A stretch of 64,000 nucleotides of DNA from Arctopsyche grandis (Eukaryota; Arthropoda; Insecta; Trichoptera; Hydropsychidae). Numbering within the stretch: the first letter of the stretch is position 1; each line of letters opens with the position of its first letter. Under the pieces are notes generated by a model, which saw only the letters and a program-made list of their open reading frames with translations, was not told the DNA's origin and made no database searches. The stretch is from assembly GCF_051622035.1 (NCBI RefSeq), contig NC_135365.1, forward strand, positions 21,285,501 through 21,349,500, read 5' to 3'. Below, in pieces: positions 5,039 through 63,939 of the stretch. Position numbers and translations under genes: made by a program.

Positions 5039-5438
5039 TACCAGGAAGCCTTAACAGGTAACCCCAATGCGCCTTGATACAAATATCATTACAAATTTGA
5101 TACAAAGATCCCAATGCAATTTGATACAAATATCATTAGTATTATACAAAGTACATCCAAAGTACAATCCACAGAGATATCTATGGTCAAATTTGTAAAT
5201 TTGCAGCATTTTGTACAATTCAGCGAAATTCGAGATTGCTGAAAACTTGAGATTTTGCGAGAAAATGGGTAAGGTTACCAATTTGTTGGAACCGTTTCGA
5301 TGAAAATCAGATAAATTGGCAAACTCTGATAGGAAACGATCGACCTGGAGTCACAAATCCAAGGTCTGGCCAGCAGAAATCAGTGGGATTTGAACCCGTG
5401 ACCACTATATATGCTAAACACTAGTCTATTCTGCTAGA
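5039..5438 (-). mobile_element. SINE, chimeric: head B, shared core, tail A
   Basis: Read on the minus strand: a B-type tRNA-derived head (GACTAGTGTTTAGCAT; B box GGTTCAAATCCC), the shared core (GACTCCAGGTCGATCG to GAAACGGTTCC), then the A-type tail (GCGCATTGGGGTTACCTG, then CTTCCTGGTATAA). The copy at 60564 has the same arrangement. Confidence 0.85.
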
Positions 5439-5630
5439 TACAAATCAATATTGATAAATTCACTATCGGACATGCATACATATTTGAACACGGCAAAGGG
5501 TTAAATTTTATCAACATATATGAATATAATTATTTTATTACTCTTCAAATATGAATTATAATACGTATTCATTTACTTAAAGCTATCAACAATAAAATGT
5601 TCAAATTGTAATAATCAAATATTGTATTAG

Positions 5631-5861
5631 GATGGTGGAGATTATCTGTCGCTTCAGGATATGGGCCGTCGTCGACAGTCTGTCGGTCCTCAATCATTAC
5701 TGAATCGAAGCGACTTTGGAAGATTTTCTGCCAAAAGACCTGAACGAGCCAGGACTGCCAGGGAGACGTCCATTCACCGGCAGCAGAGCGCATCCATAAG
5801 AAAATGCCAAACGTCGAGAATAGAATACGGCATGGAGAGACCGCCGTTCAGAATCTACTGA
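5631..5861 (+). CDS. Probable alternative terminal exon (tau isoform or unassigned gene)
   Basis: After acceptor TTGTATTAG the frame is open in phase 0 for 76 codons: DGGDYLSLQDMGRRRQSV, a basic Ser/Arg/Gln-rich stretch, then ERPPFRIY and TGA at 5859-5861. AATAAA at 5944-5949 lies about 80 bp beyond the stop. The composition is clearly less AT-rich than the flanks. The tau repeat exon 829-993 also ends in phase 0, so joining the two keeps the frame; that makes an alternative tau C-terminus the simplest reading, but a separate gene is possible. I do not recognise the residues as a known family. Confidence 0.5.
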   Translation, partial: DGGDYLSLQDMGRRRQSVGPQSLLNRSDFGRFSAKRPERARTARETSIHRQQSASIRKCQTSRIEYGMERPPFRIY

Positions 5862-5943
5862 AAGCACATGCTTGAATATTTGCTGCTTCTCATTGTAGTC
5901 GAAATATACATAATCACTCACACACAATCAAATAATTTAGTTG

Positions 5944-5949
5944 AATAAA
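5944..5949 (+). terminator. Poly(A) signal AATAAA
   Basis: Canonical hexamer 83 bp after the TGA of the exon at 5631-5861. Confidence 0.5.
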
Positions 5950-7154
5950 TCAAACGATTATAATTGCATTCGCTTTCACCGAACATTTTACTTGTGTCTG
6001 CAAAATTATAAGCCAACAAAATATACGTCCATTGAATGTCCATAAATGTAGGATTTATAAGTGCTTGGTAAATTGGAAAAGTATTTATTGAAAATTGAAT
6101 ATTTTATGTAGGTGTAGATCAATTCTAACTTAACACAATTTATGCCAAAATTTTATAGTGTAAAAGTACAATATGTTTCACTATATGTATGTATGCCTTG
6201 AAACCTTAAACAGGTTTATACGTAAATGGCATTTTTTGAAATATAATCTTAGTGTATTAAACGATGATTGAATGTATTATTAAATTCATTTTCAATACTT
6301 CACACCTCTAGAAGAAAATATTTAGGATGTGTAGTGTAACTTTCCTCGAATTTATTAGCTTTTAATTAGTCTTGTAGTATTTGAATTTTGATTCAAAATT
6401 ATTCGATAGAAAAGGGCGGTCTTATGATCTGTTTAGAATGTTATCCGTCTCAAATATAATATGAAGTATATATTGAAATATTTTTATATGCTTCTTAAAT
6501 GCACATTGGACACATTTTCCTTCAACGAACACATTGAATATTTAATAAATGTATAGGAATCTTATTTCCTTTAATACTATGTGTATTAGTATTATGCGTT
6601 GTATTTTGCTTATGAAATTTTAGCAACGATTTATCTCTGAGTAATCGTTGAAATAAAATAAATAAAAAACAATGAATGTGTTTTTCAAAAATATTAATCG
6701 TGTAATGTAATATATATAATACATATATGAATAAAGATTTTAGAATAGCATTTTTTTTATTTCATTTCTTAAAAAAATGTATTTCATGTGAGCCTTTTTC
6801 AGTCTAAATTTCAGAATAAAATAACAAGTGACAAAAAGTAGAGAAAAACAATTGAATGGTTTATTATGGCAATTCATGTCATTTGTTTTGTGAATAATGT
6901 ATTTTGAAATAAAATCACAACAAATCAATTGAAAATTTCGATTTCATAAAATCTATTATGATTACCCACATACGCAGAGTTCCACTTCTCGGAATGCCTA
7001 GACTTTTTTAAGGTTTTCCAACTTTCATTTTTGTCATCGTAATTTGAGACAATTAATGTTATAAAATACCACCTATTATTTGCATAAGATTATGAAGTAT
7101 AATTTATTTGGTTAAAAACTCACCTGTGCAGAATAAATTGTTTCAGAATTTAAG
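5950..7154. other. Intergenic, no gene seen
   Basis: AT-rich sequence with homopolymer runs and short frames only. Nothing recognisable. Confidence 0.6.
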
Positions 7155-7545
7155 ACCAAAGCATTAAGATTAGGAGTGTTTGTAAGACGGTTACGGCATC
7201 AAAAGGTCGAAAGATCTTAAGTCGAAAGATCAAAAATAATTTACGCATGGTAAACGGTACAATGTATATATAATATATATCAGTGGCATGCGGTGAAATT
7301 ATCTCTCTTTTTGTCGTACAGCCTTGCTGCATGTGCGCGGGCAAGATACGGGAGGAAAAGCCTGTTCCTCTTGTATCCTGCTCGCGCAAATAAAGTGAGG
7401 CTGTACAACAGGGGGAAAGAGAGTGTTTTCTTAAGAGAAAGATATAATGGTATAAATGAACACTTTCGATTTTTGACCGACGGTCACCGACGTGTACTTG
7501 TCCCGTAAACCGACGTGTACTTGTTCCTAATCTTAATGCTTTGGT
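7155..7545. mobile_element. MITE-like element with perfect 21-bp terminal inverted repeats
   Basis: Left end 7155-7175 starts ACCAAAGCATTAAGATTAGG. Right end 7525-7545 is its exact reverse complement, ending CCTAATCTTAATGCTTTGGT. The interior carries TCGAAAGATCTTAAGTCG, CATGGTAAACGGTAC and a segment around GATACGGGAGGAAAAGCC, all shared with the palindrome at 55399-55792. No transposase. I could not identify a clear target duplication. Confidence 0.75.
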
Positions 7546-15100: not shown

Positions 15101-18100
15101 TGCATGCAATTAGTATTATATAAAAAGCAATGTATTTCATATGAACACATTTATGATGTGCTATTAGTGTATAATATAATAAAATGAGGCAAAGTAGTAG
15201 CGAATATTAGTACTGATTTAATATTTGTATATCATCAATATGCAAAAAGGAGTTATTCTTTCGAAGCGATATCGGTTTAGATGGAAAGCTGATCAAATTT
15301 GAATATGCCGCAGCGGTGGGTTTATATCTACCTCATTCGACATCATGTCTTCCATCCTTTTGAAGCTGCGGTGCATGTCTTTGAGTTGCCACAGCAGATC
15401 TAAATTGAACGGCATGTTGGCTAACGGTGCCAGAGCGGCGATCAAAGTTCCTCCAGAGCCTCCGGAGAGCAATCCACTTCCACCACGCAACAGAGCATTC
15501 GTCGTATAGTGTCTGCGCAATACAGACTCCCGGGTCCTCAAGTACGACACGAAAGCGTCCAAGGAGCGAACGCTACAAAATATAAAACAAACTTAATACA
15601 TTTCCAATACAAAATCAAACACTTGCATATATTATTAAAAATGTACACACTTAAGCAAACCCATTATGAATGCGTTGAATTTGAGTACGCTCTCCGATAA
15701 TGCATCTTCGCTGTTGATTCTCATCACCAATTCGTTCAATGATTTAGTTATCGGTCCTATAATTAGCAAAATTTAACATTAAATAATCTAACATAACCTA
15801 CAATTTTTTCATTGAATACATACCTTGTCTTGCAGACGCTTCAATAACTTGCCATACGGAATTATTAGCCGGACCAAAAGGAGTGTCAATTGAGTCTCGT
15901 AAGCCATCGCTGAATAGTCCGTATAATGCTGGACACAATAATCCAACGATTAGTCGTGGTGCTCCAGTTCCTTCTTCAGCAACGGTATCAACGGCTTCTA
16001 ACACGTCTGATAATAGTCCTATATAATACATCAAAATTTAAGTCATACATATTGTTTCTACCCCACTCTTATGTATGTATATTATTTAAACTCTACCTCT
16101 CTTTTGTGCAATCTCAGTAGAAGATTGACGATGCAATCCATGACTATTAGTTGGGCTTGCATATCCTTCGGGACTTGATTCTCCTTCTTCACAAATGGGA
16201 ATCTCTGCCAAGTTTTTGATCTGTAAAAAAATTACATATTACAAGGTGTTTGTTCCTAATGATGCAAAATTGGCATTGAGAATTATCATACTTGATAGTG
16301 TCGATGTGGTGCAGCAGACGATATGTTAGGGGAGTTTGGAGGTGTCTTCAATACGGCCGCTCGAAGTTCATCGGCCGATCGCTTGCTTTCACCTTTTTCA
16401 GCAAAACTGACTGATTTTTTGCTGTGACCACTGCTGCAGCTCGAGTCGAGCGATTCCTTATCGTCGTCCGATCGCTTCATACACAAAAACTTGGTAACTT
16501 GATTTTTGACCTTTTGAATTTGAGTGTTATCCCATTGCTCCATATCGTTGCAGGTTATTCCGCTGTGTTTTAAGAAGTCTTCCAATTGTTGCAGATCGCA
16601 ACTTGTCAATATTGGTTGAGATAGTGAAGTGGGAAACACACATGGATTCACTTCAGTTATTTGTCCCTTCACGGGTCTTGGTAACGGAGGTGTAGACGGC
16701 CTGGCACCGTTGATGTCATGCGACTTTCCAGATTCTAAGCTACTTTCAGTGCCTACACCTTCATCGTGGAAGAATTCCGTATCATCTATATCTTTTTCAG
16801 CAGCATCCAAAAATTGTTGTGAAAACCTTTTAGCTGCTAAGTCATTATTCTTCTTCATTTCTACTATTGAGTTATTTTTAAGTAAGTAGTATGGTTCTTG
16901 TAAAGATCTTCGTTTTAATACTTTCTGTTCTGTTTGCATATTCATACAAATAGCAGCATCTTGTGCAGGATCTTCCATTTCAAACATACTATACCGTTTA
17001 GTATTTGGAGTATTTTTACGTGTCTTGTCAACAGATTTGCGCAATATGCCTTTCGGTAGAGGAGGTCTCGGTGGTGCAATGTCTATGACCTTGCCATTGA
17101 TGGCCATTTTACTCTGCTCTGCCAATGATATTGAACGTTTTGGAAGGGGCGGACCACTTCCGGGTATTCCAGATCTTTGTTTCTCGTTCATAAAACTGGC
17201 TTCTGAACTTGTAGCGCTGTCGTACTTGTATACGAAAAGAGGATTGAATCCTGGCGCTGGAGCTGGACTGTTTTGAGCTGATGAATCTGTGAGCATGGTA
17301 GATGATCCGCGGTATCCGGATGACGGCTGAGTTGCCGTGCTTGAACTGGATGAAACATTTGTTGTATTATTGCTTAGAAGAGAAGCACAATCGCAACTGA
17401 CTGGTCTTGCTTTGTGCTTTACTGGTGGTGATACGCAGAAGAGTGGTCTTTCTTTATGGCGTAACAATTCCTCTTCTTTGTCTTTTAATTGTTGAACTAT
17501 TTCAGGCATTTCTGCTAATATTTGCCTGTACTCCATAGGCAACAAAAACGTTAAGGAATCCCAATCTCTTATGTGGTTAAAACCTTTTTTCCTTAATCCT
17601 TCTACGTCATTGCAAGAGAATGGTCTTGCATTTTTTCCTCCTTGTCTTTTATCTTTGGTTTTTGCGGGCTCGTCGGGTGACGGAGCGAATTTCAACGGTT
17701 TAAATATTACCTTATCTATGTTTTGATCTTTTGATATGAATCCAAGGTCTGGAAGAGTATAATTTGGATACAGCACATATACAGGCTTTTGACTATCGCC
17801 TTTCTTGAGCTTCTCGAGGAAAGACGGTTCTACGACTTTCAATACACTTCGTTCTCGTGGTGCATGTAAATTTGACAAGAATGACGTTTGCATGCTTTTA
17901 TCCATTAGATCGTGTGGAACTTGAGTAGACGTGGCTTTATGATCTGTATTATCTTTGGAAAACAGTTTATGCAGTCTTGTTATCTGCGTACCTTCAGATT
18001 CTGAGCAACTAGATATACTAGCGCTCGTAATAGAAGAACATGTAGATTTTCTCGTTTGAGTAGTGGTGTTTCCCCTTACTTTGACGGGACTACCCGTAAC

Positions 18101-21100
18101 ACCAAGATTTTCAAAGTTGTTAATGCTAGGTCTGTTTAGCGGTTTGTTAACAGTTGCATATAAATTTCTTTCGGAGTTTTCCGATATTTCATCCTCTTCC
18201 ATGATAAAATCATGAGCCCTTTTTGTTATTGTTTCAGAAATGTTAGTACCTTCCACGAGACTGTCTTCGAAAGTGCACGTGGAATATTCGTTAGTGGCGC
18301 TGTCGACCCACTTTTTAGTGTTATTTTTCGATTCAGATTGTTTTATATCACAATCGTCATTCTGATAATTCTTATCTCTGCCAATCTTCGCGGAATAGCC
18401 GGAGGCTTTCGTCTTCGAATCGGTCGAGAACGAATCACCACTGTCGCCAGCCTCCGAGCTGTTCGGCCAACACTCCTCCGAATGATCCATGAGCGAATTC
18501 ATGATCCTGTCGTTGCTCATACTCTTCTGCTTCATGAAGAGCTTTACGAGATTGAAATTTGGCGGGCGTGCGCTATTTCTTCCATGGGGATTCTCAGAAG
18601 AGTTTATCAATTCGGGAGTGTGGCTATTTTGAGACCCGCCAGACGTCTTCAGACATCCAGACGGCAGATTTAAGTGATTATCAGTCGAACATGATTCCGT
18701 CTGAAAACATAATAAACACACTTGTTTAATTAATATATGTATATATATACAAAACATATGTTTAAAAATATATTGAAGGTTGTCTAACATTTGACGACAT
18801 GACATGAGCACTGGGCGAGCTCGTAACACTTTGGCAATGATGTTTAGACCGAAGGTCAGGAGCACTCTGACTTTTCAGAGTAGGCATCCCTCTTGAGAGT
18901 TCCGAACCAGAATATTCGTTATTGTTACCAGAAGGTTGTCTGAAAATCAATATTTTGATTAATTAAGAGCGCACGCATATTGATACACACTGATGAATAG
19001 TTTTTATATATTACCTCTTAAGTTGAGACTGCCCCGGTCTGTTCTTCATTTTACTCCATGTAATAAGACCGGAGTCGCTTTGAGCCAGTGAAGATTCTAT
19101 AGGGCGTTGTAAACGGAAAGATTTGCGTAACTTTTCCGTTGAATATGTATTAGAATTGTGAGTTTCACTTGAAGAACTGTATTTGGCTTCTCCTGGTAAG
19201 TCTTGCTTCTCTGTAAAATAAAACAATTCATTTAAATGAGGTTAAGTACAAATATGCTTAATAATTTGGGTTTATTGAGCACAAATGTTGTATAATATTG
19301 AAATTTATCAATTTTTAGTACAACTATCAAGACTACGCCTTCAAAACCAATTAAAATTCACAGAATGAATTTAAATTTAATTTCATATTTGTGCTTAATA
19401 CATTCTAAACCGTTTTAAGATGAAGGTTATGATTATGAAAAAATATTGAACATACCGTTCGAAACGTCTTGGCAGTCGCTGTCTTCGGAATACATTGTAA
19501 TGCTACCTTCGAAGGCAATCGTATAATTGTGCTTATTTGCTTGACATGTGAGGATTAAATCTTGCTCCAGCCGGTCACAATCGAGACTGTCGACACTGAA
19601 ATGACCTGGAACGGTCGACGTCTCTTTCACGGGCGAAAACAGTAGCTCCGATTTACAAATCGACATTGTATTAATCGAACCGGCTGTGGAATCCTCACCC
19701 TGCATGATAAAATTATCAATTAATAACTACGTATTTCAGTAAATACATACATACATAATGCTTCAAGTGCAACATTACGTATAAATTTGCAAATTTCAGT
19801 CTCATTTTAACGTTTTACACAAGTCTTTACATTAACAATTCACAAATGTAACTGAGCTATTTTATATGTACTCATACTTAGTCATTCGTTTTCTAATGAT
19901 AAGTACGAATGTGACGCACGGAATAAATGCTACAGGAAATATGACATTATAAACTGATATAAATCGAGCATTTTAATTTCTAATTTTAAAACAGAGTTGT
20001 ACAGTATTTTTTTGCATACAATTTACACCAAATTAATATTTTTAGGGATTTAAAACCAATATTTGTATAAATATTATACACTATTCTTTTGTTTTAATTA
20101 TTTGAATGTGGCATACAACCATGCATCATGCAAAATGTTATGTATTTATAATAGGGGACCAAATTAGTACATTCAAATGCGGAATTTTCTATTAATTGAA
20201 TGATTTCTTTAATAATTTTCATATATAAAATATAAAACTAACACAATTTCATCAAAAATACATGCAATGGATTTTTTGTTTAATTTCAAACATTGTGAAG
20301 TATGAATTATACATTTTGTAGCAAGCATGTATAAGTCTTTCAGGTTAATATTAATGGTACATTCTCCAAATGACTATATGTATCGCATTCTACATATATA
20401 GTTTTAAGAATGATTGAAAAAAAAAAAACAGTTTAAAGGATTTTTCATTTTAATTTATGTAATATTGATTAATGGATTTTCTAAATGGCACACAAACAGG
20501 GATGGTCTTCGATTCAGTCCAAAATATCTATTTGATACCTGAGAGCTACTGTGCGGACTGAATGAAGAATCAAAACAGAACTTTTCCATCAGCGAACTGG
20601 TGATGCTGGCGTACATCTCACCGCGACGGTTCGTCTGCAAAATTCAAACATAACGGAGACCCATGGAGTACACATCTTCAACATGTGATGAACGGGTGAA
20701 ACTCGATGATGAATTTTGCATGCACACACATACATATGTACTTCTTCCAATATGTCAAATAATTGCTATTACATATTGCATAATAACTTCGCGATACTAA
20801 GCTGGCAAAGCAGTTCCTTGCGAGGTGTTCTTCTATTCCCCATATTATGTATATTAATAATACTGAAATATAATGAATAAAATAGGGAAATTTGACCGCC
20901 ATTCTTTAAAGGCCTTGACGGTCTTCAATATTTTTCATAATTATAATATTTTTTATTTGTTAAATGATTCTCCAAATTCAAAAAGTTAAGAACTGCTTTA
21001 GAACATTTAACTTCAATTGATATATATCTTGTAAGATTTAATCAAAAGAATTCATTAAAAATTAAAATTGTACGCCGGGAGTGTAACGGCTGACTCACAT

Positions 21101-24100
21101 CTTGCATGAGATGGCAGGCTGAAGGCGGCAAATTGGACAGCAGAGCATGGATGTCACGAGTGCGGAAACTCTCCATATCCGCTTCAGCTAAGTTGGCGTC
21201 CAAATCGCGAGCCAACTCTTCATAGCACGCCAACGATCCCAGTCCTTTGTAAGAACTGGACAGCGAAGACAGCACACTTGCGTGCTGACACGAACTGTCT
21301 CGATAGCTGAAACGAAATTATAAACGTATTAACACTTCGAAAATGTAATCTACAAAATAAAATGTGGTATTTGGATGGATTGAACTATGATCTGAATACA
21401 AACATACATAGTATACAATAAAATTGGATCAAAAGATTAATCTATTAATAAAAAAACATGAACTACAGGTCTTTTACTGAGAGTTGGCGCGCTCTCGTAC
21501 TCACACAACAGAGCGTGGAAGGGACAGAGCTTTTTTTATTTTATATGTACATACATATATACCAGGGAGCCTAACAGGTTACCCCTAATGCGCCTTCCTG
21601 GCCAATTACAAACAATGCAGCATTTTTATTACATAAGTCGCTGAATAAAACTCGAAATTAACGACACATCTATGAATTTCAACTAGTACATAAATTTTAT
21701 TGTACACTAGCTGAACCCTACATGCGTTGCAATGCCATAATAACGCATGAAATTCCCGTTCCCGTTCCCGTTCTCGTTCCTGCTCCCGTTCCCGTTCTCG
21801 TTCCCGTTCCCATTTGTCGGAAAAACGCAGGCAGCGAACACATTTGAAATTATTGCGTTGCAGTGACACTCATTCCCGTTTTTCCCGTTTCTGTTCCCGT
21901 TTTTTTTTCACAGTAATCTTCCCGGACATGCATACAACAAATTCTGAAAGTTCCATCGTAATCAGTTCAGTGGTTTAGGAGCCTATTCGAGACACACACA
22001 CACACACACAGACATTCATTTTTATATATATATATATATATAGATTAATCATACTCAAATAACGGTGACATCGTAAGTAGGAAGGTTTTTAACCAATTTT
22101 TAATCAAAGAGCCGTTTCAACAATGAAATCAGAAAAATTTGGCAAAATCTGATAGGAAACGATCGACCTGGAGTCAAAAATATCCAAATCTGACCAGTAG
22201 CATTAAAGATATACTCAGAATAAATTCTTTTCAATCGAGGTCAACTTACGGGATCGAACTCGGCGCCTCTCGGTGCAAGGCAAGAGCCATGCTGCTGGCT
22301 TTAATTATTAAATGCAGTGTGACAGCATGCTATACATCTATTCACTGACACTACACAAGCGCATTTGTTCGCGCCAACTTTCGGTAACAGACCTATACAT
22401 ATGTACATATGTTGTAGTATAAATTTGAATCATTTTGACAATAGAAGCCTCACATCATACATATGTATTTCAAGTCATTTTATATTTGTATATGTATTCT
22501 GTTGATGCTTTGAATTGATACCCAGGGTCGAAAACAAGCAAAAAACGAAGTCCGTCACCAAAGTTGACATTTAGCCTCGTCATAATTTGTCAATGGCAAT
22601 TTCAATACTTTGTATTGTTATTCCTATTAAATTATCTTCTGATTGACAGCAACTTCTTCATACGCATTTATGCATTTTATGAGTCCAATTCAACCGCTAA
22701 TATTTGGATTTAGTCTACAAATGCTCAAAAAATCTATCTTAATAATTTCAAGCTGCCTATTGAGATTAGGGTTGCCAAATGATAATTTGATAAAGGAGGG
22801 CAGATGGGTCTAAAAAGGAGGATTTTCTGTAAAAAAAAAGGAGGACATTCAGAAATTAAACGAATTTTTTATATTATTCTACTTTCTTTTAATCATATTT
22901 AGCTGAGCTGCCAATTTTGGAAAGACGTTCTTGGTTTTTTAACAAATAATTATAAAAATCTTCACATTTCATGTTTTTGAAGTTGTATTGAGTAAGAATT
23001 AAAGATTTAACTGACTGCACACTTAGTCTATTCCTCTCTTTGCTCCACTGAGTATTAATCAGTGAAAAAACTCTTTCCACATTTGCATTATGTGCGCTTA
23101 TACAAAAATAAAACTCGCAGATCTTGAGCAGTTCTGAGAAACATTCAATGTTTTTAGCACTTTTGAAGTAGATTGTCCACTGCTCGTGCAACTTCAAATC
23201 ATAATATGCTTCATCTTCATCTGATTTTGATTTAAGAAATGAAATCAAGTTACAAAATTGATCGTGTAGCTTAACATCGTCAATCTCTACACCTCTGATG
23301 CTCAAGAACTCAATGCATGAAACTAAATCATCATAAATAAGTCCCGCTCGATGTTTAGTAAAAAGGAGGACTTACAGTAGGTAAGGGAGGACGGGAGGAC
23401 AAAACATGGAAAAAGAGGACATGTCCTCCTTTTGCACACCATCTGGCAACCCTAATTCAGATCCGATAGCATATTCATAAGATCTCACATGAATTTTATG
23501 CAGATCGGTCGCAAACTTCCCACGTTCCGAGCAATTCATCAGCTGTTAGTTCTGCTATGACGAACGCGCATCATAAAAAAATTGATCAAACCAATTGTAT
23601 TTCGAAATGAAGTCAACCTACATATGTATATGTATGAATCACATTTCGGACAAGCACATATTCTTTTCATTTCACAAACTCCATTTTCACCGAGCTGAGC
23701 AACGCTTATTGTTATTAAATTTTATAATTTTGTTTTTACTTATTGATTGTATCCGTTTTTTATAGCCAGTAGCATGACTTGGTGGTTGGACTTTTGCCTA
23801 GCACCGAGAGTGGGACTGCCAGATTTATTGATATCCAAACCGGGATATTTTAATTGTATTCCCCCCCCCCCAGGCACATATTACTAGAATGATAAAAAAA
23901 ACTTTGTAAAAAGCGTAAACTTAACAAATTACATTTAAGATCCTTCCTTTTATAAACTAGTATTTCCTTTCTTTTTTGCCAGTTTATTTAGTTATTATAA
24001 TATTAAATGAAATTAATTACATATTGCCAAAGAAGATTTTCTTACTTTTTTAACCATGGATGTGGATCTACGGTGAGATTGAGATTCGTGCATTTTTTTG

Positions 24101-41892: not shown

Positions 41893-42482
41893 GAACCATT
41901 GTGTAATTACAGGAATTTCTAATGCGTCACAATAGTCAAAAAATATATTAATCATCATCATCATCATCTACAGCCATTCACCATCCACTGGTGGATGAAG
42001 GCCTCTCCAACACGCTTCCACTCGTCTCTGTTTTGCGCAACTCTCATCCACCTCACCCCAAACATTTTCCTAATTTCGTCTACCCATCTTCCCTACGGTC
42101 TTTCTTTACCCTTTTGCAGTCTCTCGGGTACCATTCTAGCACTTATTTTGTCCACCTTTCGTTCATTTTTCTAGCCACGTGGCCCACCCATTGCCATTTC
42201 AATCTCTTTACTCTATCGACTATGTCCACTACCCTTGTCATACTTCTCACCCACGTGTTCCGCTTCATGTCTATCCTCGTTATGCCGAGCATACAGCGTT
42301 CCATAATTTTATATATAAGGAGAAAAAGTTTTCAAAAATTGGAAATCTCTTACGTCAACAGTCAGCACCAATACATGTATGTACATATGTGCAACGACAA
42401 GCCGTGAATACAAAACATTGAGGCCCAAATGGAAGAGAGAAGATCAAAATTTACACATACTTCAAATCTAATTATGAAAATA
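41893..42482 (-). mobile_element. Retroposon family E copy interrupted by an RTE LINE end
   Basis: The 3' hairpin end (ACCATTGTGTAATTACAGG to CACAATAGTCAAAAAATAT, 41895-41947) and the 5' part (GAATACAAAACATTGAGGCC through AAATGGAAGAGAGAAGATCA, from 42405) match the intact E element at 51929-52259. The RTE fragment at 41952-42310 lies between them. Confidence 0.7.
41952..42310 (-). mobile_element. RTE-type LINE, 3' end (degenerate)
   Basis: Minus strand reads ERCMLGITRIDMKRNTWVRS, VVDIVDRVKRLKWQWVGHV, and ends at an ATGATGATGATG tail. Homologous to 2026 and 28592. Confidence 0.82.
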
Positions 42483-44134: not shown

Positions 44135-44695
44135 CACACCCAGATGTTTCAAAACAATATACTACACGTAGGAAAATTTCATCCTCAAAAAATCCACATA
44201 AGCGTAGGACTTAAAGATATGAGTTTTGATAAGGTCACAGAGCACGCGATGAGCTTTCATTCCAGTGGCGCCTCGTGTATATTACGACGAAAAAAAAATA
44301 TAACAACGCAACATACAGACATACAGACAGACAGACACCCGCTTTAGCCTGATGAGGTATGGCAGAGATAAAGCGGTTCTCGGAAGGGTACGCCGACCGA
44401 CGGTTGCCACCCCCGCAAAACCGCAAACTTATAAAGCGAATAAAATATGACACCTCACGGTTTATAAATGCGTTCGCCATTTTTTTCCAGTCGAGAAATC
44501 GTGCAGTGTGACATTTTACAAATAAACTACACACAAGCATATCGTGTTCATATCGAACTAATAAATAATTTTATCCATACGTTGCTTCTTCACTCACATA
44601 AAACAAAAACAAAAGTTTAATCCAGTATACGTACATAGCTATTACAGTGTTAAAAGTATATAATTTAGCACAATTTAATTTTTATTATATACATA

Positions 44696-45099
44696 TATAC
44701 CAGGAAGGCCAAACAGGTAAACCCCAATGCGCCTTCCTGGCCAATTAAAAACGATGCAGCATTTTTATTACATAAGTATGAGACACTGAAAACTCGAGAA
44801 ATTAACGAGACATTTATGAATTTTAACTTGTACATTTAAGCATACTCAAATAGTGGTGACATAGTAGGTAGAAATATATTTAGCCAATTTTTAATCCAGG
44901 AACCGTTTCAACAATGAAATCATAAAAATTGGCAAACTCTGATAGGAAACGATCAACCTGGAGTCACAAATATCCAAGTCTGACCAGCAGCATTACAGAT
45001 ATACTCAGAATAAATTATTTTCGAGGTCAACTCACGGGATCGAACCCGGCGCCTCTCGGTGCTAGGCAAAAGCCCAACCACCGAGCCATGCTGCTGGCC
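44696..45099 (-). mobile_element. SINE family A, full length
   Basis: Minus strand: head GGCCAGCAGCATGGCTCGGT, A box TGGCTCGGTGGTTGG, B box GGGTTCGATCCC, core, and tail GCGCATTGGGGTTTACCTG. One of the best-preserved copies. Confidence 0.95.
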
Positions 45100-46660: not shown

Positions 46661-47062
46661 CCAGCGGCGTGAACTAGTGGTTAGCATATTATGCTTTCGA
46701 GCAGAGTGGTCACGGGTTCGAGTCCCACTGCTGGCCAGACCGTGGTTTGTGACTCCAGGTCAATCGTTTCTTATATGAGTTTGCTCATTTTTCTGATTTT
46801 TATTGAAACGGTTCCCGTAAAATTGGCATCTCCTTTCCTATAACTTTGCTAATCTCAAGCTATTCGTCGTCTTGAGGTTCGCAAATTTGATTATAAAATG
46901 CTGCTAAAATTTCTCCATATATGTCACTGTGGGTGTTTGTATGAAATCGCATTGTATCAAATGCGTATGTATTAATTGATTGTATTGTATAAGTGCACTC
47001 GTCGCTTTGGAGCGATCTGCAAAGGCGAGTGTTCATGTTCTATGAAATAAAATAAAATAAAA
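46661..47062 (+). mobile_element. SINE family B, full length
   Basis: Head CCAGCGGCGTGAACTAGTGG, TTAGCATATTATGCTTTCG, B box GGGTTCGAGTCCCAC, core GACTCCAGGTCAATCG to GAAACGGTTCCC, B tail GTCGCTTTGGAGCGATCTGC and an AAATAAAATAAAA end. Confidence 0.92.
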
Positions 47063-47271: not shown

Positions 47272-47610
47272 CCAGCAACATACATAGATCAGTGGATAGC
47301 ATGTAATGTTTTCAATTGTGTGATCACGGGTTCTATCCCTGGCTTTGTTGCTGGCTGGACTTCGGATATATGACTCCAAGGTCGATCGTTTCCTTTCAGA
47401 GTTTACTAATTTATCTGATTTCATTGGAAACGGTTCCAACAAATTTTCAGTCCTATTCTATTTCTCGCAAGATTTGAGAGTACAGCATCTCATAAGTTGT
47501 TAATATTTAAAAATGCTGCAAAAATTTGTCCAAATATTTGATGACCGATATTTGCAATTGGTCTTGAATAATAATTATGTACAATGGAGACAATAGATGT
47601 TGTGTAAATA
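47272..47610 (+). mobile_element. SINE family C
   Basis: Head CCAGCAACATACATAGATCA, GTGGATAGCATG, B box GGGTTCTATCCC, core GACTCCAAGGTCGATCG to GGAAACGGTTCC. The tail is unlike A or B and resembles a TTTGCAATTGGTCTTGAATA stretch. Confidence 0.8.
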
Positions 47611-49384
47611 AAAATGTGTATAGCCGTATAAATAAAAAATACAGCAGTATTTTACACGTTGACATTCCATTGAGTGATTTTGAAAATCAATTGATACATA
47701 CTTTGGAATTAAAGCTAAAACTTTAGTACATTGTTATTATACGAAAAGAAATTTGCTTCGGATGGTTACTATTGTGCTTTGATAGAATACGAAAACATCA
47801 ACAAAACTGCATTAATACCAAATTCAATTGAACCAAATCCAAACTGTGAACCAAATCATTATTGAGTTGCAAAACAACATCATATGAAGAATCAAATATT
47901 TCGTAAAACTGTATCTAAGTATGTATGTGGAAAACCTAATGCTTTAGAGAAGGTCATAGAATATCATCAATTCTAAAACTCGGAATAGAATATAATAAAC
48001 TATGGACACTAAAGTGTGATCAAAAGATAGCTAATGCTACTAATTAAGACTTAAGTCGCAATAAAGGCGATCCTAAGCCTTTGCATATACAATGTATGTA
48101 CATTGACCGGTTCCAATTAGTAGCTGATGGGTAACGACAAACTAAAAAGCTATATTTAATGCACAAGGAGAAAAATCTGGGTACTTAACATTCATACAAT
48201 CCATACAATATACATACAAGGCATTCCATTTGACAGTAACATGTCAAAATCTGACAGCAGTATGACCTTGCGCGACAAATCAATCAACCTTATCCCCATC
48301 ACACACAATCTCATCTCATTCTGTCTCGTACTCTCCAAATTTATAAGATGCTAAGAAAACAACATAAACACGCCGAGAGGAGGGGAAAAAAAACAATCCC
48401 ATGACATTTACAAATTGCGAAACCGCTTTCAGATCACTCTGGAGACGTTAAAATCAGAGCGAGATCACTCCCATATTTTTTCACGTGGTTTCTTCTTTCG
48501 TGAGTAGAGGGGGATGATACCTTTCACGTTTACGAGCCTAATAGCCGTAAGTGCGGCGCATTTGGTAAATCGAGGCAATTTATCAGGACCTGGGTAGTGC
48601 CGGGTAGCAGTAGGGATCATATCTCAAGTTAAAAATAACCAAATCGTACATACACTTTAGGGGTAAATTTAGATGGGAGGGGATTTCCCCAAAACGCGAA
48701 ACAGTGATGATTGCCAGATATTCAAGGATACTAACTGACGAGCTATTTATGAATTCCAGTTCACTAGCGTATGTCGAAGTCGTAAATTAAACCCGCCATT
48801 CTTCATAGTTCTATTTATGTATGAATGTATTTACTATAACTGTAGATTCCTCGAATCATTGAGATAATACAAACTAGAAGCTGATTGATTCTGGGTATTG
48901 GTGGTTGGAAGTTCTGAGCTAGAGTAAATATTTAAAACCTAAAGTTTTGATTTATCTGATTATACCAATGAACCGTTAAAGAAAAACTGCAAAAATTTAA
49001 AGTAAATATGTATACCCAGCAGTAGTGGCAGCTCGTGAAAAATGTTTTTAGGGTAATGCATTTCTATAGGTACATATGTAGTTTCATACAGAGACTGGTT
49101 TGGTTGAGGTGCTGCAGTACCGCAATCCCTATAGAGGAGTAAGGATCGCAATTTACCATAAAATTTTATTTACCGGTATATAACGGTAAAAATAACGTGG
49201 ATAACTGTATATGGTTACTTTTCCTAAAAATGGTAGTCTTGATTGAACCGTAAATAATTAAAAATAAATCTCAGTTGAATAACTTCACATATAATCATAA
49301 TTGAAATAATCTTTTGATCCCATTTATAACGACTTGGTTGCTCTGTGTTGCCATTTTCTAGCATGCATCAGTGTAGCCACTCTT
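47611..49384. other. RUSC intron; no gene seen
   Basis: Nothing recognisable. The block at about 48280-48600 is less AT-rich. Confidence 0.4.
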
Positions 49385-49868
49385 ATTTTATTTTATTCAA
49401 TCAATCTATGTATATGCATTCGTCATTACAGATCGCTCCAATGCGACGAGTGTAGTATACAGATCAAGAAACACACCAAATTATATACATAATTCGAAAT
49501 TATACGTAAAATCTATGGTCAAAAATAGCAAAGTGCATTGCAAACATCGTACACAATACCATCAACAAATATTTATACAACCGTACGAATTTTTATACAA
49601 TAATCATCCAAGAAGACATCTGTAGAGAGAAACCTGGTAAACCTTGAGATATAACATAATAAATCGAGATTTGCTAGAGAAATAGGGAGGGAGAGCCAAT
49701 TTCGCAGGAATCGTTTCAATGAAAATCAGAAAAATTGGAAAACTCTGATAAGAAGCGACCGACCTGGTCACAAACCAAGGTCTGGCCAGCGGCAACCGGT
49801 GTGACTCGAACTTTTAACCAAACTGACCATAGCAAAAAGCTAACCACTAGTTCATACTGCTGGTTATG
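49385..49868 (-). mobile_element. SINE family B with internal insertion
   Basis: Minus strand: head CAGCAGTATGAACTAGTGGT, core, then the B tail ACACTCGTCGCATTGGAGCG at about 49430-49455. Between tail and core there is more sequence than in the copy at 46661, so it is diverged or interrupted. Confidence 0.8.
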
Positions 49869-51692: not shown

Positions 51693-51700
51693 GCAGCGTT

Positions 51701-51752: not shown

Positions 51753-51753
<1 letters not shown>

Positions 51754-51844: not shown

Positions 51845-52563
51845 GGTGCATCCGCTCTAAAATCACCAGATTAACAGAACGGCAGCTTTAAACGTAATTC
51901 TCGTTTTCTCGAATGATAGATTGGACATTTATTTATTTATTTTAAACAGACCATTGTGGCATAACAGGAATTCCTAAAGCGCCACAATGGTCAAAAAATA
52001 TAACACAAAAAAGAAAAAAAAACAAAATAACAATTAAACATAAATACATCCATACATACATAAAAAATAGCATTTAATAATAACAGATAAAGTAAAAATA
52101 TCAAATAAAATATAGCATAAGGAATGCCTTGCACCTACAGCCAGTTTCAATAAATATGTAAGAAACAACTACAAATACAAAACATCCCTGTAAGGCCCAA
52201 ATGGAAGAGAGTTAATCAAAATTTCACTCATAAATCACAATCAATCATGAAAACAATCATGGACATCAGATGACGAGTAACCTTTCGATGTGCACAGATG
52301 CAATTATTAAAATTGAGTTGGATCTTTCTGGCGAGTTTAATAAGGCAAGATTCGGAACTTATCGAATCTTGCCTTATTAAACTCGCCTGAAAGATCCACT
52401 CAATTTTAATAATTACCATTTTAATAATTGCATCTGTGCACATCGAAAGGTTACCCGTCATCTGATGTGCAATCTATCATTCGAGAAGATGAGAATTGCA
52501 TTTAAAGCAGCCGTCCGTTAATCTGTCGTTCAATTTGTCTGGCGATTTTAGAGCGGATGCACC
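51845..52563. mobile_element. Foldback element, long hairpin with retroposon in one arm
   Basis: Outer arm 51845-51925 begins GGTGCATCCGCTCTAAAAT. Its inverted partner at 52470-52563 ends ATTTTAGAGCGGATGCACC. Inner arms 52263-52354 and 52363-52468 are also inverted, with an 8-nt loop and a duplicated TTTTAATAATT stretch in the right arm. Once the insert at 51929-52259 is removed, the two arm pairs form one hairpin of about 185 bp per arm. Confidence 0.88.
51929..52259 (-). mobile_element. Retroposon family E, intact, with 7-bp target duplication
   Basis: Flanked by TGGACAT at 51922-51928 and 52260-52266. On the minus strand it starts TGATTGTTTTCATGATTG. It ends in a hairpin (GACCATTGTGGC ... 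GCCACAATGGTC) and a TAAAATAAATAAATAA tail. Hairpin plus A-rich tail plus duplication indicate LINE-mediated retroposition. Too short to code; a SINE or a 5'-truncated LINE tail. Confidence 0.8.
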
Positions 52564-53443: not shown

Positions 53444-53950
53444 ACCAACATCAGCAAGCTCAGTGGTAAACATATGATGCTTTCAAATGAGAGGTCATGG
53501 GTTCATTCCCTGACCATTCATTCCCGGTGTTGCTGGCCAGACTTTGAATTAGGGTTACCAAATATTCGAATACATTTGAATATTGAATATCGAATAGCAG
53601 CTTTAAATTATTTAGGTTAATTTTTGGAAAGGTAAAAATATTGATAAAATTTTAAAAGAATCCTAATCTGGAACATTAGATTGAAAAAAAAAGTTCGTAT
53701 AAAAATTATTCGAATACACAGATTTGAGATTTCTACTTTGACTAAGTCGATCGTTGCCTATCAGGTCGTTTGCCAATTTATCTGATTTCGTTGAAATGGT
53801 TTCACCAAATTGGCAAAACCTTACCTGTCTCTCGTAAATTCAAGTTCATAGCAACTCGAATTTGCTAATATTATAAATATGCTACCCACTCTGTAAAGTG
53901 TATGTATTTCTCGAAATATAAATATAATTTGTTCATTGATGTCTCTATGA
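53444..53950 (+). mobile_element. SINE family C with internal insertion
   Basis: Head CATCAGCAAGCTCAGTGGT, GGTTCATTCCC B box, GTTGCTGGCCAGACTTTG. About 180 bp of unrelated AT-rich sequence follows (about 53550-53735, starting AGGGTTACCAAATATTCG). The core resumes at AAGTCGATCGTTGCCTATC. Confidence 0.75.
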
Positions 53951-54178
53951 TCTTATATATAAAACCGAAACGACTTCTGTGATTCGTTTCTGATTGGCTG
54001 TTGTCAAAGTAGTTTCTGATTGGCTGGATTGATCAAAGACGTTTGTGATTGGTCGGTCGTTAAATAATATTATTATTTTAGATTCAAATAATACATATAA
54101 TAAAAAAACTAATAAAGATTTATTTCGTGGGTTTCATTTCATTTCCATTTACCGAGCGAAGCCAGGTAGCATCACTAG
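53951..54178 (+). mobile_element. Short Helitron-like element (family H)
   Basis: Begins TCTTATATATAAAACCGAAA right after A, contains TTTCTGATTGGCTG twice and GATTGGTCGGTCGTT, ends GCGAAGCCAGGTAGCATCA followed by CTAG (54175-54178). The best-preserved member of the family. Confidence 0.75.
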
Positions 54179-54440
54179 CACTATGTTTTCAATTGAAGGG
54201 TCATGGGTTCGATCCGTGGCCAAGTATTATTGACCAGACCTCGGATATATGAATCGATCGTTTCCGATCAGAATTTGTCAATTTATCCGATTTCATTGTT
54301 GAAACGGTACCATCAAATTGGCAACCCATCCCTGTTTCTCTCAAATTTGAGTTTCTAACATCTCTAATTTGTTGATTATTATAAATATGTTACCCTCCTA
54401 CATAAATGTGTATATTTCTCGCAAAAATTTGATATACATA
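54179..54440 (+). mobile_element. SINE family C, head-truncated
   Basis: TTTTCAATTGAAGGGTCATG, B box GGGTTCGATCCG, core ATCGATCGTTTCCGATCAG to GAAACGGTACC, then AAATTGGCAACCC. It starts at the Helitron end. Confidence 0.75.
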
Positions 54441-55398: not shown

Positions 55399-55792
55399 CG
55401 GTCTCCGTGACGAGACAGAATGTTAAATTACAGAAAACGCAAATATCGGAAGACAAAGATCGAAAATCGAAAGATCTCAAGTCGAAAGATAAAAAAAAAT
55501 GGTGCATGGTAAACGGTACATACTCACTTAATTTGCGCGAGCAGGATACAACAGGAACAAGAGGAACAGGCTTTTCCTCCCGTATTAATGTGCGCGCCCA
55601 GAATACGGGAGGAAAATCATGTTCCTCTTGTTCCTGTTGTATCCTGCTAGCGCAAATTAAGTGAGTATGTACCGTTTACCATGTACCCTTTTCTTTTGAT
55701 CTTTCGACTTAAGATCTTTCGATTTTCGATCTTTGCCTTCCGATATTTGTGTTTTCTGTAATTTAACATTCTGGCTCATCACGTAGACCCGG
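55399..55792. mobile_element. 394-bp near-perfect palindromic element
   Basis: The arms meet at about 55590-55600 (CCCGTATT ... AATACGGG). Outer ends are near CGGTCTCCGTGA and CACGTAGACCCGG. Because the arms are inverted copies, both strands encode the same QNVKLQKTQIS-EDKDRKSKDL-type frame, which is an artefact of the palindrome. The interior is shared with the MITE at 7155-7545 (TCGAAAGATCTTAAGTCG, CATGGTAAACGGTAC, TTCCTCCCGTAT). Confidence 0.9.
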
Positions 55793-58503
55793 TTTTTTTG
55801 TATCACAATCGATGCCTTGATATTGCAAACGTCAACGGAAGCAATTCCGTAAAAACATTCGTAAAATTGTATATAAAAAAAACCTAATTGAGAAATCAAC
55901 AATTCTCTCCGTAAACTTTGATCATGAGTATGGCAAAGTGCTCAATCTGCCATAGCGAGAGGGGGGCTAAAACGAAAAAAAAAACAATCAGAACATTGTG
56001 GACAATTCGACAGTATGGACGATAGACGTCACCGTGAACGAAGAGGCAGTATTTTTAAACGCGTCTATTACGATTATTTTTCACCATCGTAATGGCAGAC
56101 GTCATTTCCACTTATATTGATGACCAAACCGAGCAAAATGGCAAAGTTTGAAACGATCGGATAAGAACTCAAACTTCGTCACACGGCAAAATCGATTCCG
56201 AGGTTAGTAATTAGTAAAAAATGAGGAATCGTTACAAAACTCCAATAGTTGTATTGAAAAGTAAATTTTCTGGCAATAGTTAAAGTTTTCTTTGTCAGTT
56301 TCACTGCAATTTTTATTCCCACTGACTTTTTTAATCAATCTTTGAGTCACTATTCAAATTAGATAAAATCTCTCAATTCGTGTTTTATGACACGATAAAA
56401 CTCCATAATTTGATTTTTAATATGAAAGTATGTATTTATTATTTCAATGAAAAAAAATGGTACTATTTGATTTGTATTGGTATTATTTCAAAGAGTTTCA
56501 CGATCCATACAATTGTATATATGTAGGTAGACGTCGTTGATATTGAATTCCAAGTTAAGACAATGCATTTTGTGCTAATTAAAATAATTTAAAACGCACT
56601 AGTTATAAACAAACAAAAACAATAGCGCCGTTTTTCGTTTCAACAAAGCACTTGCGAATAATTAGAGCGTACTTGTTTAGTCATAATGATGTCATGTACA
56701 TACAAAATGTCATGAAATTTAATATCGACATTTAGAATGCGAATAGCGTAAACAATTCCGTCGCTATGCGAATATAAGCTCAAAGGAAAATTAGCATAAA
56801 TTTTCCTCGAACGGAAAAAAACCAAACAAAGACAAAAAGAGAACAATTAGAATGTATGGAACTTTCTATGGGATAAAATTTACCGTTAAGCATACGTCTA
56901 GACCGATTCTCATTACGTAAAGGAGGTGACCACTTTTCTAAAAACGGTAGAAGAGATCAAAACATAGGTGGTACAGGTTTTTAAGACAAAAAAAAAATAA
57001 ACGGACCCAATGATTCATTACGACCCGCAAAGTGAAATGTGGGTGTGATCTGAGATCGCATTACGAAAACGCTGCAAAAAGAAACGATGATCGAAGACGA
57101 TGACGGCAACGGAATCAACGAAATATAATCAGCGATGAATTTAATCCAAACGTACATATGTATGTATGTACATATGTACGTACATACAGGAAATCACCGA
57201 TCGACCGTTGGAATTGGTTTAGCCGTAAAAGGGTTAAATTCCCTCGGGATTCAGGGGACGATGAATTTGATTATAATAACGGAAAAGCTCAATCAAAGGT
57301 AGCTTATGTACATATAGTAATTGATTTTCCGGTGGCCGAATCTCGAGATGAGTCAAACGAGAGAGTTGACGGATTAGACCTGTCAAAGAGAGATGTGTCA
57401 GGAGTTTCATTTAGACACTAAATCCAGGGTACTGTCAATGAGGATAAGCTGAAGACATAACTCTTGATGAGACTAAAAGCACGTCTTCTTATACAAATAA
57501 ATTCGGAGTGGGAGCAGCAATAAATTTGAAGACAAATACGACGTTGTAGTGATTCGCAGAAAATCAATCTTCCATTTGAATCACCATCTGGAGACAAATT
57601 GATAGAGTGAATGTAAACACAATACCAATATTACATCTATTGTACATTTTCGATAAATTATTTAAATAAACAGACATTGTGCTTTTTAACCAGAACAATA
57701 GATTCCAGTTAATCGATCCAAATAACAGACACGTCGATTAATCGGAACAGTCGCTTAATTAAGACAATATATTTAAGACAATTCCGACGAACAATTTATG
57801 ATAAAATTTTTGGAAAAGCCCGAAATTATTAGGATTAATGCTTATTGATTGGGAAAAAGTAGCGATGTGTTCTAATTAACTATTAATTGTTTTGAGTTTA
57901 CTTCTTTATAATAATGTGATTTAACGTACTAAGGAAAATTTACACACGTAGGAAAATCATCAAATAAACCCCCCCCCCCCCGCCTTTTTGTGTATTTTTT
58001 TACGATAATTAGCATCAACATTGAATTTGTATACTGTCATATGTACTGTCACGTTCCAGGGATATTTTGTATTAAAAAAAACGTTGATTCAGTCAACGTT
58101 TCAATCAATATTTTTATTTAAAATTTAAAATTCTAAATAAACAAAAGATACACTGTTATCATCAATATATTCGAAGAACACTTTGATATTGGAACGATGA
58201 ACTTGAGAGATGCGTAGAATAGTAATATATGTACATATACATATGTACATACCTCGGGCACGGTTTGTATGCTGAATTTGATGAGCTCAATCTTTATCTT
58301 ATAGCGATTAAGATTATCTTATCGCTTTTATGGTTTTATATTCCCCATGTTCGATTAATGTTTTTTTAACGTTTGTATAAAACGTTGTTTGTTCGTTCTC
58401 TATGCAAATCTACAGTTTTCAACTATGAAATACTATCTCGTACTTTCCGAACGTATACAGTATATTTTATTTATTTATCTTTTTTATTTTTTTATTTAAT
58501 TTA
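55793..58503. other. RUSC intron; no gene seen
   Basis: Poly(C) tract near 57970. The plus-strand frame at 57158-57421 has no recognised domain. The region 56900-57430 is less AT-rich. Confidence 0.4.
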
Positions 58504-58556
58504 CACCAAGAAGACCTAACAGGTAAACCCAATGCGCCTTCCTGGCCAAAGACAAT
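58504..58556 (-). mobile_element. SINE tail A fragment
   Basis: CCTAACAGGTAAACCCAATG and CGCCTTCCTGGCC only; head and core absent. Confidence 0.8.
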
Positions 58557-58706: not shown

Positions 58707-58769
<63 letters not shown>

Positions 58770-58850: not shown

Positions 58851-58855
58851 TTAGT

Positions 58856-60563: not shown

Positions 60564-60974
60564 CCAGCAGCGTGGACTAGCGGTTAGCATATATGCTTTC
60601 GAACATAGTGGTCACGGGTTTGAGTCTCACTGGTTGCTGCTGGTCAGACCTTGGTTTGTGACTCCAGGTCAATCATTTCCTATCAGCGTTTGTCAATTTA
60701 TCTGATTTTCCTTGATACGGTTCCAACAAATTGGAATTTCTCAACGGTTCCAACAAATTGGAACCCATTTCTCATAATTTTCGAGTTTTTCTGCATCCCG
60801 AAATGTAACGATTAATATTTAAAAAAAGCTGTAAAAATGTAAGTTTATCAAAAATTTGTCCATACATGTCTCTGTGATCCTTTAAAATTATTCTAAAAAT
60901 TCTATAACGATGTTTGTAATTGGCCAGGATGGCGCATTGGAGTTCACCTGTTTGGTCTGCCTGGTATATATACG
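60564..60974 (+). mobile_element. SINE, chimeric: head B, shared core, tail A
   Basis: Head CCAGCAGCGTGGACTAGCGG with TTAGCATATATGCTTTCGA, B box GGGTTTGAGTCTC, core GACTCCAGGTCAATCATTTC, a duplicated GGTTCCAACAAATTGGAA, and then the A tail GGCCAGGATGGCGCATTGG to TGCCTGGTATATATA. A second example of the B-A combination seen at 5039. Confidence 0.88.
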
Positions 60975-61562: not shown

Positions 61563-61650
61563 ATCAAAATTAACTAACAATGACATGTAGTCACACCCAT
61601 TCACAGCTGGAGTCCCCTACGCATGCCGTGCCGTAAGATTCAGTGTGTCT
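61563..61650 (+). repeat. Dispersed repeat shared with 27010-27095
   Basis: CCCATTCACAGCTGGAGTCC and ATGCCGTGCCGTAAGATTCA. Confidence 0.65.
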
Positions 61651-61874
61651 GCGCCTTAGCAGTTACCCGCAATATAAATATTTAAAATGAAAAATTCTCC
61701 GGTTAAATTCCGAAAACCTTTTTGCATAACACATATCGTATTTCGAAACCGTCACTTTTGGGACTTAAAACGTCACTCTTCATAAAGCTTAGAACAAATA
61801 TTACGAAGTTGCTTCATTTTCGGTCTACTCACATTACAGCTTAAAAGTGATGAAATTGACGCATGTAAAGTATG

Positions 61875-61900
61875 CCACTCACCTGAAACAAAACAATAAA
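61875..61900 (-). promoter_or_regulatory. Candidate recursive splice site (ratchet point)
   Basis: On the minus strand a strong pyrimidine tract and acceptor run straight into a consensus donor: TTGTTTTGTTTCAG|GTGAGT (AG at 61884-61883, GT at 61882-61881). This is the zero-length-exon arrangement used for stepwise removal of long introns. It lies in the long 5' intron of the minus-strand RUSC gene. A short conventional exon cannot be excluded. Confidence 0.5.
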
Positions 61901-63222
61901 AACACATTAAAATCTTGTCTAGCAATTTTTTTTATATAAAAATGCAATTCAATCATACCAAAATAACACAGACAGGTAAATAACCTTGTTTATTTACTAA
62001 ATTAATTGGCTTCTTTGCGGAAATACCGTAGACCGGTATCAGACGAAACATCGCGTTAATGTGAATCAGGCCTGTTCAGATTAAATCTAAGCAATTAAAT
62101 CCACAATATACGAACGAATTTAAGAGTTATTACGCTATATTGGAAGATTTTCGCTTTCGGTCGACAACTTTCACGGCGAGACAAGACAAGGTTTTTGCCA
62201 TATAAGTAAACTGAATTGCACTATATATTACTCACAATCAAATATATATGTATTAGTTATAATTGAGCTACAGTAATTCTCCAACGAGATACGTGATATC
62301 GTGTCAATGACCACGATGACACAATGTGTAAGTATTTATCTGGGTACTAAGCAAAAGTGGAGTAACTTTTCAAAAAGTATGAAGATGAAATAAAGATAGA
62401 GCACGTATCGTAGCGCTTTTCGCATGAGCGATGGCCCAAAGATGACAGTGCGAAAAGGGTTAAAACGCACAAAGTCGCTGATCTTATATTTATATACGAA
62501 ACATTGAGAGGCAAGGGTGAGTAAGAGGTAGTTTTAGAACTGAGAAGGGCTCTCGACGAATTATATTCGCGTATCCAAATATAGCCTTTTCTTATTCACT
62601 ACATGTAAAGTCTTTGTAATAAATCATCAGATCGAGGTATACTTTCAAAAATTGCCGAATATTGAAACATTCATTACATTTCTCAATGTTTTTCTAATAC
62701 ACATTCCAGTCTTTGTGATTCCTAATTATAAGATATGACAAATTATGACATCATCCATCTACATATTAGTTCTGTAATAATTCGACAATTGTTGAGGTGT
62801 CATAAAGAATGTTTAAAATATTTGAAGAAAGGTCAAGGATTCCCTAATATATATGTACATATGAAGTAACCCATAACAGGTTAGAAAAGGAAAGTAATTA
62901 CAAAATTAATTCTCAATTTGTAAAATATTGGGCGTAGATAAAATTAAGTACAGAAGTAAATATGTATCTGAAGATATGTGGATTCACTTGAAGGAAGATG
63001 GTTACTTCGACATGTTGTCTATTTAACTAAGAATAAAGAACATATAAAAGAACGTTTTATATAAAAATTAAAGTCGACAAAAAAAATCATCCTAAAAAAA
63101 TCAATCAATCAAACTTAGTATAGTATGTAGATTTAGATAACCTAAAAAAACGACAACATATCGGGCGTAACTGTTTCAATATTGCTTTATAAAATCGAAA
63201 ATTTTGAATAGCAATTATAATA

Positions 63223-63490
63223 GCCACCAGCAGTATAGTTCGGTGCATTGATGTTAACCACCGAGAGTATTCCGAGTTTCAGCCCTGGGTTGACCTCGAT
63301 TGAAATTAATTTATTACGACTATTTCTGCAGTGCTGCTGGTCAAACTTGGTTATTTGTGACTCTACGTCGATCGTTTTCTACCAGTTTGCTAAATTATCT
63401 AATATTATTAGTGAAACGGTTCCTCGTCAAATTGTCAAATCCTACCTACTATTTGTCACCACTATTGGAAGATGATTTAAAAATGTATAT
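63223..63490 (+). mobile_element. SINE family A, diverged and 3'-truncated
   Basis: Head GCCACCAGCAGTATAGTTCG, CACCGAGAG-like block, CTCGATTGAAATTAATTTAT, core GACTCTACGTCGATCG to GAAACGGTTCC. The A tail is missing. Confidence 0.82.
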
Positions 63491-63517
63491 ATTAAAATAA
63501 TAAATGTATATAATAAT

Positions 63518-63939
63518 CAGCGCCGTGGACTAGTGGTTAGCATATAATGCTTTCGAGCAGAGTGCCCAAGAGTTCGAGTCCCACTAGAGTCCCGCTGCTG
63601 ATCAGACCTTGGTTTTTAACTCCAGGCCGATCGTTTTTTATCAGATTTTGCCAATGTTTCTGATTTTTATTGAAACGGTTCCTGTAAAATTGGCATTTCC
63701 TTCCTATCTCTCGTGCTAATCTCAAGTTATTCAGCGTCTTGAGGTTCGCCAATTTGATTAAAAAATGCTGCAAAAATTTCTCCATAGATATCACTGTGGA
63801 TGTTTGTATGAATTCGCATCGTATAAAATGCTTATCTATAGATATTGATTGATTGTATTGTATCTGTATAAGTACACTAGTCGCTTTGGAGCGATCTGTA
63901 AAAGCTAATGTTCATGTTCTATGAAATAAAATAAAAAAT
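63518..63939 (+). mobile_element. SINE family B, full length
   Basis: Head CAGCGCCGTGGACTAGTGGT, B box GAGTTCGAGTCCCAC, core CTCCAGGCCGATCG to GAAACGGTTCC, B tail AGTCGCTTTGGAGCGATCTG and an A-rich end. It lies 30 bp after the truncated A copy. Confidence 0.92.

Follow-up and report, generated by a model that had tools for sequence, protein, structure and literature searches.

Short interspersed elements of the caddisfly Arctopsyche grandis share a conserved core under several heads and have probably exchanged their 3′ hairpins

A 64,000-nucleotide stretch of the genome of the caddisfly Arctopsyche grandis (Trichoptera, Hydropsychidae), C11:21285501-21349500 and hereafter the window, contains copies of several families of short interspersed elements (SINEs) that have one central segment, the core, in common. 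The elements show traits of SINEs, being about 400 bp long, dispersed and of high copy number, and they appear to follow a single plan in which a head with RNA polymerase III-type boxes is followed by the conserved core, then by a body that changes faster, and last by a 3′ hairpin of one of two types. We consider it probable that they belong to a single superfamily with tRNA-like heads, that the enzymes of long interspersed elements (LINEs) copy them, and that the 3′ hairpin serving LINE recognition has been exchanged. The assembly comprises 475,669,232 bases in 189 contigs, which carry C-numbers here, and stretches fetched from the same genome are labelled L. The core was first located by a 20-mer scan, and a profile was then built from 11 window copies and applied with a cut-off of E ≤ 0.01 to the window and 28 loci (288,160 bases). 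It produced 48 matches. The window has 15, of which 13 score above 40 bits; 20 loci of 10 kb taken at round coordinates have 22, and eight loci picked for the core itself have 11. The same profile found nothing in the reversed sequences of the window and loci, which bears out the proposal of a first-pass annotation of the window that several SINE families here carry one conserved central segment. Extrapolation from 22 matches per 200 kb gives about 52,000 core copies genome-wide; the single 20-mer GACTCCAGGTCGATCGTTTC has 3197 exact occurrences in the 475.67-Mb assembly and its reversed pattern none. Occurrence of the core by chance is excluded. The annotation had given the shared core a length of about 65 bp; the sharing stands, but the homologous stretch is longer, beginning (by eye) 5′ of the core in GCTGCTGGYCAGACYTGG, and the bodies of two of the groups described below, B and B-A1, remain alignable for about 150 bp more beyond the core. 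Its three families, with heads A, B and C, likewise proved to be an incomplete tally of a correctly recognized plurality, since two further head types, D and E, were met, mostly outside the window.

Two types of 3′ terminal hairpin, end A and end B, each followed by A/T-rich repeats, were distinguished, and copies are named below by head and then by end. Two window copies join head B to end A, as the annotation had proposed for positions near 5039 and 60564: B-A1, which runs from 5437 down to 5036 on the minus strand with head B′, the core, a B-like body and the end A hairpin, and B-A2, at 60564 to 60969 on the plus strand, with head B″, the core, a body of its own with a small internal duplication, and end A. 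Full-length B-B copies lie at 46661-47049 (+) and 63513-63928 (+), the latter directly 3′ of a copy with head A, core and body in which no end was recognized (63227-63507, +). Full-length A-A copies lie at 38390-38753 (+) and 44695-45097 (−); another A-A copy (21535-22298, −) is split by an insert from about 21691 to 22045, one at 24266-24645 (+) has lost the 5′ part of its head, and several other copies in the window are partial. End A is also carried by a copy at 33041-33372 (−), the core of which adjoins a second, inverted core (33365-33427, +), and by a remnant without core that adjoins a microsatellite (58482-58549, −). Head C is represented by a copy with core at 47272-47640 (+; 3′ limit approximate), in which neither the end A nor the end B hairpin was recognized, and a head-C-like copy with core lies at 54160-54400 (+; limits approximate). 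A partial copy with core occupies 53719-53916 (+). The remaining copy (49399-49863, −) has a B-type end; its head is B-like, with a best score of 96 for the 5′ half, and its 3′ half is nearest to that of locus L017 (154). These nearest-relative scores, computed on halves cut at the core, cover 47 copies with at least 55 bits and enough flank. Inverted pairs of SINE cores were observed head-to-head at 33291-33442 of the window and tail-to-tail at 1390-1549 of locus L007.

The first-pass annotation had suggested counting head and tail combinations genome-wide, and we did so with exact anchor words and gap ranges, which yield lower bounds usable as relative figures only; the reversed controls gave 0 each. 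Head A with end A was found in 211 places, head B with end A in 33 and 26 places (two gap ranges, which share no place) spread over C1 to C13, head B with end B in 37, head D with end A in 181 and head E with end A in one. Head A with end B was found nowhere in the genome in two gap ranges, where free assortment of heads and ends would predict about 25 places (calculated from the A and B figures, taking A-A from one gap range and B-A from two). The exact pattern for head D with a B-type end was likewise absent genome-wide, yet two sampled D copies, in L009 and L013, have B-type ends. As far as this test sees, head A is tied to end A, and head B pairs with both ends.

Twelve of the 59 B-A places, all from the gap range with 33, were fetched and read (L033-L044), the others being counted only; the twelve lie on four contigs, and places on the same contig are at least 2 Mb apart. 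Ten of them, together with the window copy at 5036-5437 and a copy in L013, make up the B-A1 consensus, with a common body and mostly a head of the form TTTGAACA...GGTTCAAATCCC, the head of L044 being intermediate. The nearest relatives of both halves of the window B-A1 copy are copies of the same subfamily from among L033-L041. The B-A2 copy of the window and L035 are each other's nearest 3′ half (217), and L043 (C5:29493456-29493786, −) is an outlier among the twelve. The annotation had allowed that B-A copies might turn out to be single-copy recombinants; the 33 and 26 dispersed exact places, with none for the reversed patterns, instead make B-A a multicopy group.

The position of the switch from B to A was read from sliding identity along the B-A1 consensus of 389 positions. 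Up to 330, 14 of 16 30-base intervals of B-A1 have the higher identity to B, and A is slightly ahead in two that lie in or next to the core; the consensus is B-like to about 320, and at 341-370 its identity is 0.97 to A versus 0.50 to B. The switch therefore lies some 160-170 bp beyond the core, and the exchanged part is the A-like last 60 bp or so, consisting of the hairpin and A-rich repeats, rather than the whole region 3′ of the core. Modular exchange around the core, as the annotation had envisaged, is not what the B-A1 copies display. Body comparisons gave a local alignment score of 113 for B against B-A1 (best of 2000 shuffles 48), 60 for A against B (best of 2000 shuffles 56) and 42 for A against B-A1 (reached by 6 of 2000 shuffles). 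The end of B-A2 is also A-like (0.93 to A versus 0.53 to B). A clean change from B-like to A-like sequence is seen in B-A1 only; other backgrounds hint at end exchange less cleanly. Among D copies, that of L004 has end A and those of L009 and L013 have B-type ends, and the window copy at 49399-49863 bears its B-type end on a 3′ half closest to L017, whereas L017 and L014 have end A.

The direction of the exchange is evenly balanced. B-A may be the older arrangement and B-B the chimera with a newly acquired end, which would make "head-B/tail-A chimera" a misnomer: end A occurs with heads A, B, D and E, and among the exact combinations end B was counted with head B alone. B-B may be the derived combination. 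Against this order of events, the B-type ends on the two D copies and on the 49399-49863 copy indicate that B-type ends may be just as old.

The annotation's description of the heads as different tRNA-like sequences needs correcting for heads A and B, which are alignable relatives. Both begin with CCAGCAGC and end with GCTGCTGG, and their local alignment scores 42, against 31 for the best of 2000 shuffles. Matches to the A and B boxes are present in all five head consensuses (A, B, B-A1, D and E), where 0 to 4 of 5000 base shuffles had both boxes as good; the head consensuses were partly filled by eye, that of head E leaning on L017. The distance between the two boxes is 43-45 bases in four heads and 50 in head A, in which the best A box match is poor. 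It is unlikely, to our minds, that true head swapping took place, in the sense of separate tRNA captures by one core. Such captures are favored by the A/B head identity of 0.65 and by an extra stretch in head A, which lies between the region of the B box and the GCTGCTGG arm; the likeness of the two heads at both extremities, with an alignment above every shuffle, speaks against them.

A still weaker alternative is that the B-A copies are single recombinants, the products of gene conversion or crossing-over among the SINEs themselves. L043 is a candidate for such an event, since the nearest relatives of its 5′ half are the two B-B copies of the window (180 and 168) and that of its 3′ half is L035 (159), but for the group as a whole the explanation is very improbable given the 33 and 26 places, and for B-A1 we reject it because 12 copies share one consensus head and body.

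Superfamily members with exchanged ends would be mobilized through those ends. Ends A and B both fold better than all 200 of their shuffles (z −4.05 and −3.29, respectively). Their local alignment score of 18 was reached by 102 of 2000 shuffles, so they are not related by this test; their loops look alike by eye (GCWTTGG..CTGTAA.GGC), a likeness that might mean related LINE partners. LINE reverse transcriptases of the stringent type are described as needing a 3′ stem-loop (PMC5135761), which makes the SINE 3′ hairpin a likely address label. Exact end-B sites number 115 genome-wide; of eight fetched with 280 bases upstream, six carry the core and two look 5′-truncated by eye, as expected under target-primed reverse transcription. 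Under the reading favored here, copies would be transcribed by RNA polymerase III, and a LINE reverse transcriptase would recognize the 3′ hairpin and copy the SINE. Template switching during reverse transcription could change the end, and the new end would re-address the lineage to a different LINE, after which the lineage would multiply. The predicted partner LINE would itself end in one of the SINE hairpins, GGCCAGGAAGGC...GCCTTCCTGG or ACACTCGTCGC...GGCGAGTGT.

Several observations weigh against a superfamily of this kind. No partner LINE with end A or end B was found in the sites examined, including eight end sites without core, three of which were read further upstream and five judged from 60 bases. 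Target duplications scored at least 10 in 3 of 22 copies (those with recognized head and end among matches of at least 40 bits), versus 2.8% of mismatched flank pairs, and of these three one is simple sequence, one is AT-rich with a mismatch, and one, the 10-bp ACTGATGCAT flanking the window copy at 49399-49863, is convincing. The body of B-A2 has only a small margin in favor of B, and one of its 30-base intervals is closer to A. The 3′ half of the L004 D copy with end A scores 154 to an A copy and 152 to a D copy; its body is thus partly A-like, and the switch does not always fall at the end. The Rfam tRNA model RF00005 was not among the matches listed for the window, for one head B copy or for one head A copy (a lower-scoring match of the same clan being omitted for one of the heads). 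ARAGORN found no tRNA in the window, and the predicted fold of the head B consensus is a long hairpin without a cloverleaf; for these reasons we call the heads tRNA-like and not recognizable tRNAs.

Six consensuses (A, B, B-A1, B-A2, D and E) are 84-98% identical in the core, 61-90% in the heads and 62-85% in the bodies by global alignment. They were made from 35 of the 47 copies, assigned by hand; left out were L018, L008, L002, L043, both L007 copies, L023_193, the SINE B copy of L004, and the window copies at 22203, 63330, 47346 and 54231. The central segment is thus better kept between families than heads or bodies, with an ascertainment bias: because the core itself was used to find many of the copies, search selection accounts for part of its conservation. 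The core bears the inverted arms CGTTTC/GAAACG and ATCAGA/TCTGAT, but its consensus folds barely better than shuffled sequences, 24 of 200 of which did as well (z −1.31). Across 44 copies (3 of the 47 were dropped), the arms show one double change and 34 broken pairs among 565 cells, which gives no covariation support for a core hairpin. Variation is lower in paired than in unpaired columns (0.048 versus 0.125), in copies that were picked by the 5′ arm. Searches with the core returned no match to viral contigs in one case and two in another, and two matches to bacterial genomes, all of them short chance matches in other contexts; its translations gave 14 candidates in a protein collection, none at E ≤ 0.001. 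A full-text search of the open literature with six module strings returned no paper, a weak negative as such sequences are often printed in figures. That the core is an undescribed central domain, maintained by selection as an RNA hairpin and present well outside this species, while lineages trade their 3′ ends as interchangeable LINE-address labels, is possible, though we regard it as doubtful.

One locus appeared to display the mechanism directly: in L004 a SINE B body is joined without a break to a LINE, which is followed by end B. A SINE-LINE template-switch fusion there is almost certainly not the explanation, as the hairpin is missing from all seven other copies of the LINE that were inspected, which end in AAACTGTAAATTTTCCAAATAAATAA-like sequence, and the LINE is 97-99% identical at the protein level against 86% for the SINE part to its consensus over 307 bases, indicating that the LINE is young and lies inside an old SINE B copy. 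The L004 LINE was accordingly rejected as the partner of end B, on the strength of the seven copies. This young LINE (L004 516-1400) belongs to a family of at least 148 copies, whose proteins are 97-99% identical to that of the L004 copy; a 968-residue open frame is present in many of them, and a stretch of 38 kb at C1:18.48-18.52 Mb holds four on the same strand.

Named SINE domains such as CORE, V and Ceph span distant species, unlike the Arctopsyche core, which has been seen in one species and is set beside them by description only. The CORE, V, Deu, Nin, Ceph, Inv, Pln, Snail and Meta domains, as named in PMC8010984, are, like the core, conserved body segments found under different heads and tails. 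Among Lepidoptera, HaSE1, HaSE2 and HaSE3 of Helicoverpa armigera resemble the present families in that a central domain of 62 bp, or the body together with the 3′ tail, is shared and the other parts differ, and template switching has been proposed for them; their tails are reported to derive from an RTE LINE and a mariner element, unlike here, a comparison made by description only (PMC3272025). PxSE1 and PxSE2 of Plutella xylostella are tRNA-derived SINEs with a common head and central segment and differing 3′ ends, the shared segment being 44 bp and compared with the Arctopsyche core by description only (PMC8010984). Sbg9 of Blattella germanica is said to combine two other SINEs, Sbg1 and Sbg8; it too is likened by description only, and the account consulted mentions no shared core (PMC9191728). 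Salmonid SINEs offer a parallel in which different SINEs carry one LINE-like 3′ tail of about 70 bp, shared with the RSg-1 LINE, so that the LINE is known, unlike here (PMC3272025). A caddisfly genome survey puts SINEs as a class at 1.9% on average (PMC8881205), and no described caddisfly SINE family was among the literature matches listed. The families described here provide a multi-family caddisfly SINE system with a countable head-by-end matrix in one genome. The B-A1 copies, which differ from B in their end and are B-like in head, core and body, provide a natural experiment on whether a SINE lineage that receives a new 3′ hairpin can change its LINE partner and multiply again.

The window also holds features outside the SINE families. 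An inverted repeat at 52260-52471, with 54-nt arms at 96% identity and sub-threshold mir-7131 matches on both strands, is probably a small palindromic transposon, and nested inverted repeats occupy 55400-55789 (arms of 103 and 96 nt, 91% and 94% identical, respectively). Another dispersed repeat is present in three copies (2013-2360, 28592-28940 and 41951-42313), pieces of which are 87-94% alike. An open reading frame with a hAT C-terminal dimerization region (E 5.4e-5) lies at 22889-23371 on the minus strand, and a large exon of a RUN-domain (iporin-like) gene at 16286-18874, also on the minus strand, has relatives at 82% and 70% identity and lepidopteran counterparts at about 50%.

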